A stretch of 64,000 nucleotides of DNA from Gemmatimonadota bacterium. GTDB lineage: Bacteria; Gemmatimonadota; Gemmatimonadetes; Gemmatimonadales; Gemmatimonadaceae. The notes beneath the pieces were generated by a model. It ran no database searches and was not told the origin of the DNA. It saw only the letters and a program-made list of their open reading frames with translations. The translations under genes were made by a program, and so were the position numbers. The DNA is taken from the NCBI GenBank assembly GCA_028287305.1, contig JAQBPX010000034.1:1-64000 (forward strand), in the 5' to 3' direction. Of the stretch, positions 1,123-59,384 are shown piece after piece (position 1 is the first letter of the stretch; each line of letters begins with the position of its first letter).

Positions 1123-2937
1123 ATGACTGAGCTCGACACCCTCACCGACAAGGCGGCACTGACGGCTCGCGAGAAGCGCGATGCACAGCGCGCGCAGCTT
1201 CGCCCCCTTGCCAACCTGCGTCCGGAACTCGTCGACGATGAGGGCTACTCGCCCGACGAGCTCGAAGCGATGATGGAGATGTACAACGGCACGATGGCGT
1301 CGATCGACGAAGGGGAGATCGTCAAGGCGCGCGTGCTCGAGATCCGCGACAACATGGTCGTGCTCGACATCGGCTTCAAGTCGGAAGGCAGCGTTCCGCT
1401 CGAAGAGTTCAAGGACTTCCCCGACCTCAAGATCGGCGACGAAGTCGAAGTGCTCCTCGAGCACCTGGAAGACCAGGAGGGATCGGTCGTCCTCTCGAAG
1501 AAGAAGGCGGACTTCATGCGCGTGTGGGAGCGCATCCGTCTGGCCTACGAGAACGATCAGCCGGTCGAAGGCACGCTCGTCAAGAAGATCAAGGGTGGCG
1601 TCGTCGTCGACCTCATGGGCGTCGACGCGTTCCTCCCCGGCTCGCAGATCGCCCTGCGGCGCGTGCCGAACATCGACGAGCTCCTCGGCCAGAAGTTCGA
1701 GTTCAAGATCATCAAGCTGAACAAGCGCCGCCGGAACATCGTCGTGTCCCGTCGCGTGATCCTGGAGAACGAGCGCGCCGGCAAGCGCGAGAAGCTCATG
1801 AAGGAGCTGGAGAAGGACCAGATCCGGAAGGGCGTCGTCAAGAACATCACCGACTTCGGGGCGTTCATCGACCTCGGCGGCGTGGATGGACTGCTGCACA
1901 TCACGGACATGTCGTGGGGCAGGATCTCGCACCCGTCCGAGCTCGTTTCCATTGGTGCCGAGCTTGAAGTGAAAGTTCTGGATATCGACTGGCAGCGCGA
2001 GCGCATCTCGCTCGGCCTCAAGCAGCTCCAGAGCTACCCGTGGAAGGACGTCGCCGAGAAGTATCCGGTCGGCACGCGGGTGCAGGGCAAGGTCGTCAGC
2101 ATCACGAACTACGGCGCCTTCATCGAGCTCGAGCCGGGCATCGAAGGGCTGGTGCACATCAGCGAGATGAGCTGGACGCGCAACGTGCGGCACCCTTCGA
2201 AGCTGGTGAGCATCGGTGAGACTATCGAGGCGGTGGTGCTCAAGGTCGATCCGAACGAGGAGAAGATCTCGCTCGGCATGAAGCAGACGGAGCAGGATCC
2301 GTGGGTCGTGCTGCCCCTCAAGTACCCGGTGGGCACGCGCATCAACGGCAAGGTCCGCAACCTCACGTCGTTCGGCGCCTTCGTGGAAATCGAGCCCGGC
2401 ATCGATGGGCTCATCCACATCTCCGACATGTCGTGGACGAAGCGAGTCCAGCATCCGTCCGAAGTCGTGAAGAAGGGAGACGCGGTCGACGTCGTCATCC
2501 TGAACATCGACTCCGAGAACAAGCGCATCTCGCTCGGCCTCAAGCAGGCCGAAGAGGATCCGTGGCTCCGCATCGGTGAGACGTACCCCGTCGGCACCGA
2601 CCTCAAGGGCACCGTGGTCCGCCTGATGGACAAGGGCGTCGTGGTCGACATCGGCAACGACATCGAAGGGTTCGTCCCGATCTCGCAGCTCTCCCCGGAC
2701 GGCAAGACGATCGACAATCCGGCGGACGAAGTCTACGAGACCATGAACCTCGAGATGCGCGTGCTGGAAGTGGACCCGATTCACCGTCGCATCGTGCTTG
2801 GAGTCACCGCCGTGCCGGCCGATCAGCCGCCGCGCCCGGAGACGCCGTCCAAGGTGCTCCCGATGGAGTCCGAGGAAGAGGGGATCGTGATCCCCGACAT
2901 CTCCGACCTCGACGTGGACGCGGACGACAGCGAGTAG
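1123..2937 (+). CDS. rpsA: 30S ribosomal protein S1
   Basis: This 604-aa S1 protein recruits mRNA to the 30S subunit. Six S1/OB-fold repeats can be read in order, beginning near GEIVKARVLEIRDN, QPVEGTLVKKIKGG, KGVVKNITDFGAFIDL, GTRVQGKVVSITNYGAFIEL, GTRINGKVRNLTSFGAFVEI and GTDLKGTVVRLMDKG. Repeats three to five carry the canonical GLLHI/GLVHISEMSW-type core, whereas one, two and six are more diverged, as expected for S1. The C-terminus is acidic (SEEEGIVIPDISDLDVDADD). The gene has its own promoter and a strong intrinsic terminator, so it is probably a single-gene transcript. Confidence 0.98.
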   Translation: MTELDTLTDKAALTAREKRDAQRAQLRPLANLRPELVDDEGYSPDELEAMMEMYNGTMASIDEGEIVKARVLEIRDNMVVLDIGFKSEGSVPLEEFKDFPDLKIGDEVEVLLEHLEDQEGSVVLSKKKADFMRVWERIRLAYENDQPVEGTLVKKIKGGVVVDLMGVDAFLPGSQIALRRVPNIDELLGQKFEFKIIKLNKRRRNIVVSRRVILENERAGKREKLMKELEKDQIRKGVVKNITDFGAFIDLGGVDGLLHITDMSWGRISHPSELVSIGAELEVKVLDIDWQRERISLGLKQLQSYPWKDVAEKYPVGTRVQGKVVSITNYGAFIELEPGIEGLVHISEMSWTRNVRHPSKLVSIGETIEAVVLKVDPNEEKISLGMKQTEQDPWVVLPLKYPVGTRINGKVRNLTSFGAFVEIEPGIDGLIHISDMSWTKRVQHPSEVVKKGDAVDVVILNIDSENKRISLGLKQAEEDPWLRIGETYPVGTDLKGTVVRLMDKGVVVDIGNDIEGFVPISQLSPDGKTIDNPADEVYETMNLEMRVLEVDPIHRRIVLGVTAVPADQPPRPETPSKVLPMESEEEGIVIPDISDLDVDADDSE

Positions 2938-2961
2938 GCTCATCGCTCCAGCAGGAACAGG

Positions 2962-2994
2962 ACGCCCCGCCGAACCGGCGGGGCGTTCTTTTTT
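2962..2994 (+). terminator. intrinsic terminator of rpsA
   Basis: A perfect 11-bp GC-rich stem (2962-2972 with 2976-2986) has a 3-base AAC loop and is followed by TCTTTTTT. It lies 24 bp after the rpsA stop and closes the transcript before the transposase-like gene. Confidence 0.93.
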
Positions 2995-3235
2995 CAAGGT
3001 GCATGGGAATTACTGCCCGCGTATTCGTGTTAGCCGCGAAGCGGCTTGGTGATATTCGTGGCAAAAGCTGTTGCTGTTCGGGCGCCTGCCGTCACCCAGC
3101 GTCCGCCGAGATCCCCCTGGTTACGACACTGTCATTTTGGGTGCAGGTCTTTGTCACGTGGCCGGTCGCATACTCGTGCAACCTCAACTGCCGACGATGC
3201 ACACCTCCCCATGGCCCGTCAGCACCCAGGCGCCG

Positions 3236-4297
3236 ATGAATGACGCCGGCGAGCTCGCTCGCCAGCTCGCCCCCTTCGCCGCGCTGCTCAAGCGCAGCGA
3301 GAATCGTCGTGCCCTCGAGGCCTACGTCCGGGGCCTGGCGGCGAGCATTCCGAGCAAGACCGCAAGCGGCATTGCCGCGCACGACGCCGGCACCAGCTCG
3401 CAGCGGCTGCAGGAATTCCTCACCCGCACCGCGTGGGACGAGGAGCGACTCAACTCCTTGCGCATCCGCACGCTCGTGGGCAGCGCGGAGCAGTCGAGTG
3501 ACGAGGAGGGCGTGATCGTCATCGGCGAGGAGCTGCTGCGGAAGACTGGGTCCAGCTCCGTGGGCGTCGCGCGCCATCGCACGGGCGGCGCGCGCGCGCT
3601 CAACGCACAGCGGCTGGTCACGGCGCACTACGCCGGCCGCTCTGGCAGCTGGCCACTCGGCGCCCGCCTCTACCTGCCCGCGGAGTGGGCGGGCGACGCG
3701 GCACGCCGCACGCGCGCCCGCATTCCCGCCAGCGTCTCCTACGCCTCGCCGGGTGCCATCGCGCTCGACCTGGTGGATGTCGCGCACGGCCTCCGCGTGC
3801 CGGCCAGCGCGGTGGCGGTGGATGCTGCCTTCTCCACGGACTCGCTGTTGCTCGACGCACTCGAGCACCGCAACCAGCGCTACCTCTCGCAGCGCGACTC
3901 GTCCCTCACCGATGCCGCTTCGCTGCGCGGCGCGCGCTGGACTCCCGTGGACGAGGGCGCGGCGGCCGCGGGCGTGCGTCCACGCGAGATCGCCCGCATT
4001 CGCCTCTCGCGCATCACGGCCGCGCGACGACCGGCCGACAGGCCGGGCTACCTGTTCGGCGTGCGTGACGCAGGCTCCGCGCACGAGGCCAGCTACTACT
4101 ACGCCTGGGGAATGGACGAGCTCTCGAGCGCGTCGCTCCTCCGCCTTGCAAGCCGGCTCGATGCGCGCCGCAGCTTCTACGAGGAGGCGCGTGGCCAGCT
4201 GGGCCTCGAGGACTACGAGGGGCGCCTCTGGCCCGGCCTGCACCGCCACATAGCCCTCGTGATGCTCGCGCACACCCTGCGACGTCACCTCACGTAG
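3236..4297 (+). CDS. IS701-family transposase-like protein with altered catalytic site (possibly domesticated)
   Basis: This is about 353 aa from the ATG at 3236; 3197 is an alternative start. The order of segments matches IS701/IS4-type DDE transposases: an N-terminal helical part ending EAYVRGLAASIPSKTASGIA, then LQEFLTRTAWDEERL, SVGVARHRTGGARALNAQ, LYLPAEWAGD, VAVDAAFSTDS (second Asp region) and FYEEARGQLGLEDYEGR (Glu region), ending HRHIALVMLAHTL. Where the family has its first catalytic Asp (VFDDTG/VIDETG) this protein reads VIVIGEELLRKTG, so that Asp appears to be lost. I see no terminal inverted repeats or target duplication. It may be a fossil or a protein reused for another DNA-binding role. 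It is a monocistronic gene between rpsA and the carboxylase operon. Confidence 0.72.
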   Translation: MNDAGELARQLAPFAALLKRSENRRALEAYVRGLAASIPSKTASGIAAHDAGTSSQRLQEFLTRTAWDEERLNSLRIRTLVGSAEQSSDEEGVIVIGEELLRKTGSSSVGVARHRTGGARALNAQRLVTAHYAGRSGSWPLGARLYLPAEWAGDAARRTRARIPASVSYASPGAIALDLVDVAHGLRVPASAVAVDAAFSTDSLLLDALEHRNQRYLSQRDSSLTDAASLRGARWTPVDEGAAAAGVRPREIARIRLSRITAARRPADRPGYLFGVRDAGSAHEASYYYAWGMDELSSASLLRLASRLDARRSFYEEARGQLGLEDYEGRLWPGLHRHIALVMLAHTLRRHLT

Positions 4298-4348
4298 CGC
4301 CCCATCCGGCTGGTACGCGGTAGCCCCGGGCGCTAGCTTCTCCCGCTT

Positions 4349-5899
4349 ATGACCATGCGAGAGAAGCTCGAGCTCCTCGAGCGCCGGCGGGCCGAGGCAG
4401 AGCTCGGTGGTGGCGAGGCGCGGCTCAAGGTTCAGCACGACAAGGGGAAGCTGTCGGCCCGCGAGCGCCTGGACCTGCTCCTCGACGAGGGCAGCTTCGT
4501 CGAATATGACCGCTTCGTGGTGCACCGGTCCTCCGACTTCGGCCTGGAGCAGACGCGCGTCTATGGCGACGGCGTGGTCACCGGCTACGGCCGCATCAAC
4601 GGTCGCCTGGTCTACGTCTTCTCGCAGGACTTCACCGTGCTCGGCGGCTCCCTCTCGGAAGCATTCGCCGAGAAGATCTGCAAGGTGATGGACCTGGCGA
4701 TGCGCAACGGCGCCCCCGTCATCGGACTCAACGACTCGGGCGGCGCGCGCATCCAGGAGGGCGTCGTGTCGCTCGGCGGCTACGCCGACATCTTCCTCCG
4801 CAACACGCTCGCCTCGGGCGTGGTGCCGCAGATCTCCGCGATCCTCGGCCCCTGCGCCGGTGGCGCGGTGTACTCGCCGGCGATCACCGACTTCACGTAC
4901 ATGGTGCGCGGCACGTCGTACATGTTCGTCACGGGCCCCAACGTCGTGAAGACGGTGACGCACGAGGACGTGACCATGGAGCAGCTCGGCGGCGCCGACA
5001 CGCACGCCGGCGTCTCAGGTGTCGCGCACTTCGTGCATGACTCGGAGCCCGCGTCGCTCGGCGCCATTCGAGAGCTGTTCCGGTACGTGCCGCAGAACAA
5101 CCTCGAGGAGCCGCCGCGGGGAACGGGGCGTGACCCGCGCGACCGTCGCGACGAGGCGCTGCTCGACGTGGTCCCCGACCACCCGAACAAGCCGTACGAC
5201 ATGCACGACGTCATCCGTCGCGTGATCGACGACGGCGAGTTCTACGAGGTGCAGCCGGACTACGCGGGGAACATCCTCTGCGGCTTCGCGCACCTGGGTG
5301 GCTTCAGCGTGGGCATCGTCGCCAACCAGCCCGCGGTGCTGGCCGGCGTGCTCGACATCAATGCCTCGCTCAAGGCCGCGCGCTTCATCCGCTTCTGCGA
5401 CTGCTTCAACATTCCCATCGTGACCTTCGAGGACGTCCCCGGATTCCTCCCGGGCACCGCGCAGGAGCACGGAGGCATCATCAAGCACGGCGCCAAGCTG
5501 CTCTATGCATACTGCGAGGCCACCGTTCCCAAGCTCACCGTGATCACGCGCAAGGCATACGGTGGCGCGTACGACGTGATGTCGTCGAAGCACATTCGCG
5601 GCGACTTCAATGTTGCATGGCCCACGGCGGAAGTGGCGGTGATGGGCCCGAAGGGCGCGGTCGAGATCCTCTTTCGCAAGGAGATCGGCGAGAGCGATGA
5701 TCCGGCGAAGGCCATGGACGAGCGAGTCAACGAGTACACCGAGAAGTTCGCGAATCCCTACGTGGCGGCGGGCCGCGGCTACGTGGACGATATCATCGAC
5801 CCGCGTGACACGCGCCCGCGCCTGATCGACGCACTGGAGACGCTGCGCACCAAGCGCGACCGGAATCCGCCGAAGAAGCACGGAAACATCCCGCTCTGA
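4349..5899 (+). CDS. pccB: acyl-CoA (propionyl/methylmalonyl-type) carboxylase carboxyltransferase subunit
   Basis: This 516-aa carboxyltransferase has fused N- and C-terminal crotonase-like domains, the length typical of PccB/MmdA. Recognisable segments are [22 protein letters not shown], the [12 protein letters not shown] acyl-CoA site, [17 protein letters not shown], and in the C-terminal half [24 protein letters not shown] with the [13 protein letters not shown] biotin site. It moves carboxyl from carboxybiotin to propionyl- or acetyl-CoA. The stop overlaps the accC start (TGATG). Together with the biotin carboxylase and carrier genes it forms a three-part acyl-CoA carboxylase, separate from the AccD encoded near 39.4 kb. 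Exact substrate cannot be told from sequence. A TAGCTT box lies 9 bases before the ATG. Confidence 0.93.
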
Positions 5900-58176: not shown

Positions 58177-59384
58177 GCCACGACGGCGGCCTGGTGTCCC
58201 ACGAGGGAGCGGTAGACCTCGAGCACCTGGCTCGTGACTCGCGACCACGAATAGCGCTGCGCCTCGTGCCGTCCGTTGCTGCCGAGTCGCGCGCGGAGGG
58301 TCTCGTCATCGAGCACGCGGACCAGTGAATCCGCCAGCGCCTCGCGATCGCCACAGGGCGTCATGAGCGCCTCGCGCTCGTGCTTCACCACGTCCCGGAA
58401 GCCGAGGATATCGGAGCAGACGATCGGCGTCTCGCAGGCCATGGACTCGAGCAGCGTGATGCCGAACGAAGCCTTCGTGGTGGGACAGGCGTACACGGAG
58501 CTGTGCGCGTAGTAGCTCGGGCGTCCCTCGAGCACGGCACCCACGAAGGTGATGTCCGGGTCGCCATCCGCCTGGCGGCGGTAGTGGTCGCGCAGCGGCC
58601 CATCACCCACGACCACGAGCTGCGCCGGCCGTCCCTTGCCCTTCACGCGCTTGAACGAGTCGATGAGTGTCGAGAGCCCGTTGCGCGGGTCGAAGCGCCC
58701 CAGGAAGAGGATGCTTGGCACGTCCTGCCGGATCTCGGGCGGGCAGGGGACGTCGGGATTGAAGATGTCGACGTCGATGCCGTTGGGAATGATCTGCCAG
58801 TCGGCGTCGAAGTAGCGGTTGAGCGCCACCGTGGTCGAGTGCGACACCGCGATCGCGGCGCTCAGCTTCTCGAGCTTCTTCTGGAAGTAGCGATTGCCCA
58901 GCGTGTAGGCGACCGAGCGATCGAAGTAGGTGTGGAAGGTGCCGACCACCGGGCAGTCGGCTTCCTCGATCGCCAGGAGGGGCAGCACCGGCGTGAGCGG
59001 CGAGTGCACGTGCACGATGTCGTACTGGCCCTGCCGGAGCACGCGCCGCAGCTCCTTGCGGAGGCCCATTCCCACCGTGATGCGCGCCTGCGAGCCATTG
59101 CAGTACACCGGCTGGCTGCGGCCCAGGCGAATGACGTTCGGCTGCTCCTCGGCGCCCGGCAGGTGCGAAGTGATGACGTCCACGTGATGGCCGCGCCGGC
59201 GGGCTTCCCGGGCGAAGAAGTGGACGTGCTCGCACACCCCGCCAAGGTGGGGATAGTAGTACTCGGTGACGTGGGCAATGCGCAGCGGGCGCTCGTCGCG
59301 CACGAGTGCGAGCGGCGGCAGCTTGGGGAATGCCGGGCGTCGGAGACGAACGGCTGCTTCGCTAGGAGGATTCAAGAGCGGCAT
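58173..59384 (-). CDS. GT4 glycosyltransferase (PimA/alpha-mannosyltransferase-like)
   Basis: This is 403 aa from ATG 59384. It has a GT-B fold: N-terminal RIAHVTEYYYPHLGGVCEHV (glycine-rich loop), DIVHVHSPLTPVLPLL, NGIDVDIFNPDVPCPP, SILFLGRFDPRNGLSTLIDS, VVVGDGPLRDHYRR and the EX7E site in ASFGITLLESMACETPIV. Such enzymes add hexoses to a lipid or glycan from a nucleotide sugar. The start overlaps the ppdK stop by 23 bases; a later start near LRIAHVTEYY is possible. Confidence 0.9.
   Translation of the reverse strand: MPLLNPPSEAAVRLRRPAFPKLPPLALVRDERPLRIAHVTEYYYPHLGGVCEHVHFFAREARRRGHHVDVITSHLPGAEEQPNVIRLGRSQPVYCNGSQARITVGMGLRKELRRVLRQGQYDIVHVHSPLTPVLPLLAIEEADCPVVGTFHTYFDRSVAYTLGNRYFQKKLEKLSAAIAVSHSTTVALNRYFDADWQIIPNGIDVDIFNPDVPCPPEIRQDVPSILFLGRFDPRNGLSTLIDSFKRVKGKGRPAQLVVVGDGPLRDHYRRQADGDPDITFVGAVLEGRPSYYAHSSVYACPTTKASFGITLLESMACETPIVCSDILGFRDVVKHEREALMTPCGDREALADSLVRVLDDETLRARLGSNGRHEAQRYSWSRVTSQVLEVYRSLVGHQAAVVA

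Follow-up and report, generated by a model that had tools for sequence, protein, structure and literature searches.

A candidate domesticated, catalytically dead IS701-type transposase between rpsA and pccB in a Gemmatimonadota bacterium

Between the genes for ribosomal protein S1 and a carboxyl transferase subunit, a Gemmatimonadota genome carries an intact IS701-type transposase-like gene (positions 3236-4297, forward strand) that appears to be catalytically dead. We analysed it within its window, the whole stretch of 64,000 nucleotides, and read it, with a rough probability of 0.58, as a candidate domesticated protein of the IS701 family, nuclease-dead, with a Tn5 fold and a DNA-binding role. 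Domestication had been proposed in a first-pass annotation of this DNA. It stands as the best reading, and the indirect tests of selection described here favour it, but the gene is absent from the related genomes searched, where its two neighbours are conserved without it.

The open reading frame (ORF) encodes 353 amino acids, according to the ORF listing and translation of the window, and a genome search found a single copy. The protein matches NF033540, the NCBIfam model for IS701 transposases, with 232 bits across residues 9-349 (cut-off 150), and the Pfam family DDE_5 at 5.6e-33, so the family match is not due to chance. Intact IS701 members of the class reach 447 bits on NF033540, and the protein is therefore a diverged member of the family. 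Both the whole-length likeness to IS701 transposases and the intact frame had been noted in the first-pass annotation. The homologous start is probably the ATG at 3197, 13 codons upstream of 3236, as this is where sister elements start when the upstream regions are aligned; if it is used, the full coding frame would be 366 amino acids long (3197-4297, forward strand). The start-signal check found a Shine-Dalgarno sequence at neither 3197 nor 3236, pccB likewise lacks one, and a promoter search for the ORF matched none. An open frame alone is weak evidence here, because G+C content is about 73% and the reverse strand carries an ORF of 637 codons. The missing start signals and the commonness of open frames at this G+C content both suit a rather unlikely alternative, namely that the gene is an ordinary relic of a dead insertion sequence, functionless, with its ends lost, its catalytic residues mutated and its frame open by chance.

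Alignment with catalytically intact homologues shows that their first motif, DDTG, has become GEEL at residues 97-100. Glycine thus replaces the first catalytic Asp at codon 97 (3524-3526, forward strand), a loss that the first-pass annotation had recognised; E98 is ordinary, since the family carries D or E at the second position of the motif. The region of the second Asp had been described as kept, which is right for D196 itself (codon 196, 3821-3823, forward strand), while the GYG that follows it is now AFS. The Glu region had also been described as kept, and here the alignment disagrees: R308, W309, E312 and K319 of the RWxxE-(6)-K motif of the sister enzymes are L, D, R and R (sister enzymes RWVIERFYQDAKGELG, this protein LDARRSFYEEARGQLG). 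Arginine therefore stands in place of the catalytic Glu at codon 312 (4169-4171, forward strand), and none of the glutamates noticed earlier is the catalytic residue. In the superfamily the catalytic Glu is recognised by the R-(3)-E-(6)-K spacing, and the complete DDE triad is perfectly conserved in these families (PMC2266710). With D97G and E312R, D196 is the sole catalytic residue left in the alignment; two of the three are gone, more than had been recognised before. Their loss suggests that the protein should not cut or join DNA via the DDE mechanism. Barring truncated or frame-broken copies, all other homologues with readable motifs retain the first Asp, the second Asp and the Glu; the exceptions are this protein and one other, L081, discussed below.

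The gene lies in a gap between two conserved neighbours. Upstream, at 1123-2937 (forward strand), is the gene for ribosomal protein S1, which from the ORF listing and the relatives' loci we take, as did the earlier annotation, to be rpsA; its intrinsic terminator, predicted at 2959-2989 (forward strand), forms the left edge of the gap. The right edge is GCTAGCTT (4332-4339, forward strand), a promoter-like element just 5' of pccB that starts 35 bp past the ORF stop and was recognised by comparison with relatives, many of which have a similar form. The downstream gene (4349-5899, forward strand) encodes a pccB-type carboxyl transferase subunit, on the basis of a Pfam match and the relatives' loci. 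Across the family and order, many genomes have rpsA and pccB side by side and lack the gene between them, so that we are dealing with a lineage-specific insertion rather than a phylum-wide orthologue. The first-pass annotation had suggested looking for orthologues in synteny beside rpsA or pccB, and had held that their absence from close relatives would indicate an ordinary decaying insertion sequence; a search of 178 other genomes of the family returned none. A position conserved across a clade, as expected of a domesticated gene, is thus lacking, the gene being present in one genome only in a genus represented by that genome. No partner gene is conserved with it, and scanning genome and viral contigs with the single protein found no close relatives. 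Its restriction to one lineage is a further point for a functionless relic.

At three other loci (L072, L018 and L019) the rpsA-pccB gap holds an unrelated gene, by eye apparently for Tat-exported, DedA-like and pentapeptide-repeat proteins, and the gap may therefore gain genes repeatedly. The first of these (L072, G000:C14:1-8000) is a second rpsA-pccB pair in the same assembly, situated at a contig edge and encoding proteins 81% and 75% identical to those of the window; this contig may be a contaminant in the bin.

Catalytically intact sister elements bear the terminal repeat CTAGTACTACTYTGTTA, which lies 114-124 bp before the region of the codon for residue 6 and, on the other side, about 190-230 bp past the match. 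The best match between 2900 and 4420 is TACGACACTGTCA at 3122-3134 (forward strand), a decayed left terminal repeat that corresponds to TACTACTYTGTTA in the sisters. It agrees with the sister repeat at 10 of 13 bases, in the correct orientation, and lies 133-134 bp before residue 6 against 114-124 bp in the sisters. Its score against shuffled sequences gives P between 0.0005 and 0.003, for a distance window chosen after the spacing in the sisters was known. On the right no terminal repeat was found at the locus, and the right end and C-terminal tail are gone, because the expected position of the right end is now inside pccB; with it has gone the pair of flanks in which a 4-bp target duplication, typical of IS701 elements, would be seen. 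Instead of the inverted repeats on both sides that mark an insertion sequence, there is a decayed left end only, and the gene therefore cannot move itself. By sequence, the transposition capacity that a domesticated protein is expected to have lost is gone, in catalytic residues and ends alike. The earlier statement that no terminal repeats are visible is correct for intact repeats and misses this decayed left end. The several identical copies with inverted repeats that would have spoken for an ordinary insertion sequence are not there either: one copy was found, short of the multiple or mobile copies of such elements, and no sister repeat with at most one mismatch occurs in the genome.

Terminal-repeat-like sites are not enriched genome-wide over a reversed control. 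A repeat-like site at 59254 lies inside a glycosyltransferase-like frame, where it codes for ...EYYYP..., and was judged a coincidence. The stretch upstream of the ORF (2996-3235) is apparently lower in G+C than the ORF itself, 2996-3117 being the part to the left of the decayed end. In another frame, the segment 3146-3239 reads FVTWPVAYSCNLNCRRCTPPHGP, similar to the CxxxCxxC with which radical SAM proteins begin; the likeness is probably a coincidence.

Decayed or lost repeats are what a functionless relic would have, and the class has many broken IS701 copies. What opposes a long neutral period is the uneven retention of residues along the protein. It keeps 55% of the 146 columns that are invariant in eight sister enzymes, with 2 of 13 (15%) kept in the catalytic motifs, 23 of 32 at the N terminus and 15 of 15 at the C terminus; the motifs differ from the two termini together (38 of 47, 81%) at p=2.6e-5. 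An active enzyme must retain its motifs, so the motif losses should post-date its death, and since drift of the whole gene after death would have eroded the termini equally, this pattern favours selection after catalytic loss. The state of the frame also weighs against a relic. All five indels are in frame and no stop codon interrupts it, whereas several other broken IS701 copies have stops or frame splits; neutral drift to 50-60% residue identity, simulated from start points that are proxies, yields 2.8-4.6 stops, with a probability of no stop of at most 0.05. Codon usage is likewise host-like. Codon adaptation is 0.66, compared with 0.63-0.74 in host genes and 0.36 ± 0.03 when the same protein is given codons set by base composition, and GC3 is 0.88 against a GC2 of 0.56, the GC3 of neighbouring genes being 0.90-0.92. 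Such usage could come from a similar donor. Uneven retention, in-frame indels, the lack of stops, host-like codons and the correlation with L081 given below indirectly favour purifying selection on the gene after catalytic loss.

The second dead protein, L081 (the same place as L067), is on contig JACQVC010000198.1 of a groundwater metagenome-assembled genome from another Gemmatimonadota family. It is intact and single copy, with no terminal repeats, and none of the three catalytic residues is left (D97G, D196G and E312S). Its loop is also shortened. It differs from our protein in keeping the C-terminal tail and in its locus, and the two are 37% identical. L081 shows the same contrast between motifs and termini (p=1e-4), and sites retained by one protein tend to be retained by the other (odds ratio 7.2, p=1e-7). 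They share replacements (D97G, E98, G198A, Q202D, L248R, E276V and K319R), 8 of 29 where 3 are expected (p=0.008), and pair as sisters in an all-column tree with support of 99/96. We do not take this support as proof of kinship: both branches are long, and once the catalytic regions are removed the pairing has support of 76/60, with the AU test rejecting no alternative (p 0.2-0.3). From the shared residues a common dead ancestor is possible, though the trees do not establish it.

The shared replacements, the all-column pairing and the different loci would also fit a divergent IS701 clade, as yet unsampled, to which L081 would belong and whose members are or were moved in trans or work with altered residues; the gene would then be a non-autonomous element rather than a gene of the host. 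We consider this very unlikely, as neither protein has intact terminal repeats or a second copy, no acidic triad is conserved between them, and the genome is without a sister element that could supply transposase. Sampled searches of 394 genomes of the class, 121 from the family of L081 and 21 from family f6, in which part of the candidates were scored, found no further dead members, nor did a search of viral contigs with a profile of the dead pair. A bolder proposal is that the two represent an old, rare, nuclease-dead IS701 lineage in Gemmatimonadota, acting for their hosts as regulators that bind DNA or as a defence against IS701 elements that enter the genome, and the first host-recruited members known from the family; we regard it as doubtful.

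The AlphaFold model of the protein has a pLDDT of 88.5 and a pTM of 0.89, figures that do not demonstrate that the protein folds, because the input alignment consists mostly of intact homologues. A structure comparison against DDE transposases had been suggested in the first-pass annotation, and among solved structures it places the model closest to Tn5 transposase, with Z 24 over residues 2-353, and to the inhibitor of that transposase, with Z 15.8. A PDB sequence search returned nothing significant. Under the preferred reading of a domesticated protein, an IS701-type element of the CTAGTACTACTYTGTTA-end subgroup would have inserted into the rpsA-pccB gap in the lineage leading to this genome. 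Loss of the right end, the C-terminal tail and a GRP-containing loop of 42 amino acids, with decay of the left end, would have made self-movement impossible. The remaining Tn5-like protein would then have been retained through selection, as the retention pattern supports. Its most likely role would be DNA binding through the conserved N-terminal helical domain and the C-terminal helices, and binding without cutting is the most economical function to predict. It might bind a site in the host DNA close to its own gene or, equally speculatively, block incoming sister elements as a dominant negative by occupying their terminal repeats; neither a host site nor a terminal-repeat target was found.

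Bacterial host genes derived from dead DDE transposases are seldom documented compared with those of eukaryotes, and a limited search of the open literature, which does not prove absence, found no host-recruited IS701 protein. If selection is confirmed, the gene would offer a compact example of a catalytic motif erased while the putative DNA-binding and C-terminal parts were held, and a concrete protein with which to address terminal-repeat binding. Transposon proteins have been turned into bacterial regulators in TldR, TnpB-like RNA-guided transcription factors (PMC13418256). TldR belongs to an unrelated family, is RNA-guided and, unlike the protein described here, has a demonstrated function. 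TnpA-REP is a Y1/HuH-type enzyme that has kept its catalysis, and differs from our protein in both respects. It has been described as the first prokaryotic domesticated transposase (PMC8266576). The active IS701 transposases (NF033540; subgroup L073-L080 and L097) are alike in full-length match, 36-40% identity, domain order and type of left end; compared with them our protein is without the first Asp, the Glu, the 42-amino-acid loop, the tail and the right end. The Tn5 transposase inhibitor provides a precedent for a protein of the Tn5 fold that does not transpose. Tn5 transposase and its inhibitor (PDB 1muh, 1mm8 and 1b7e) have the closest solved fold, at about 9% identity, and whereas the inhibitor is without the N-terminal DNA-binding part, the corresponding part is kept in the protein described here.
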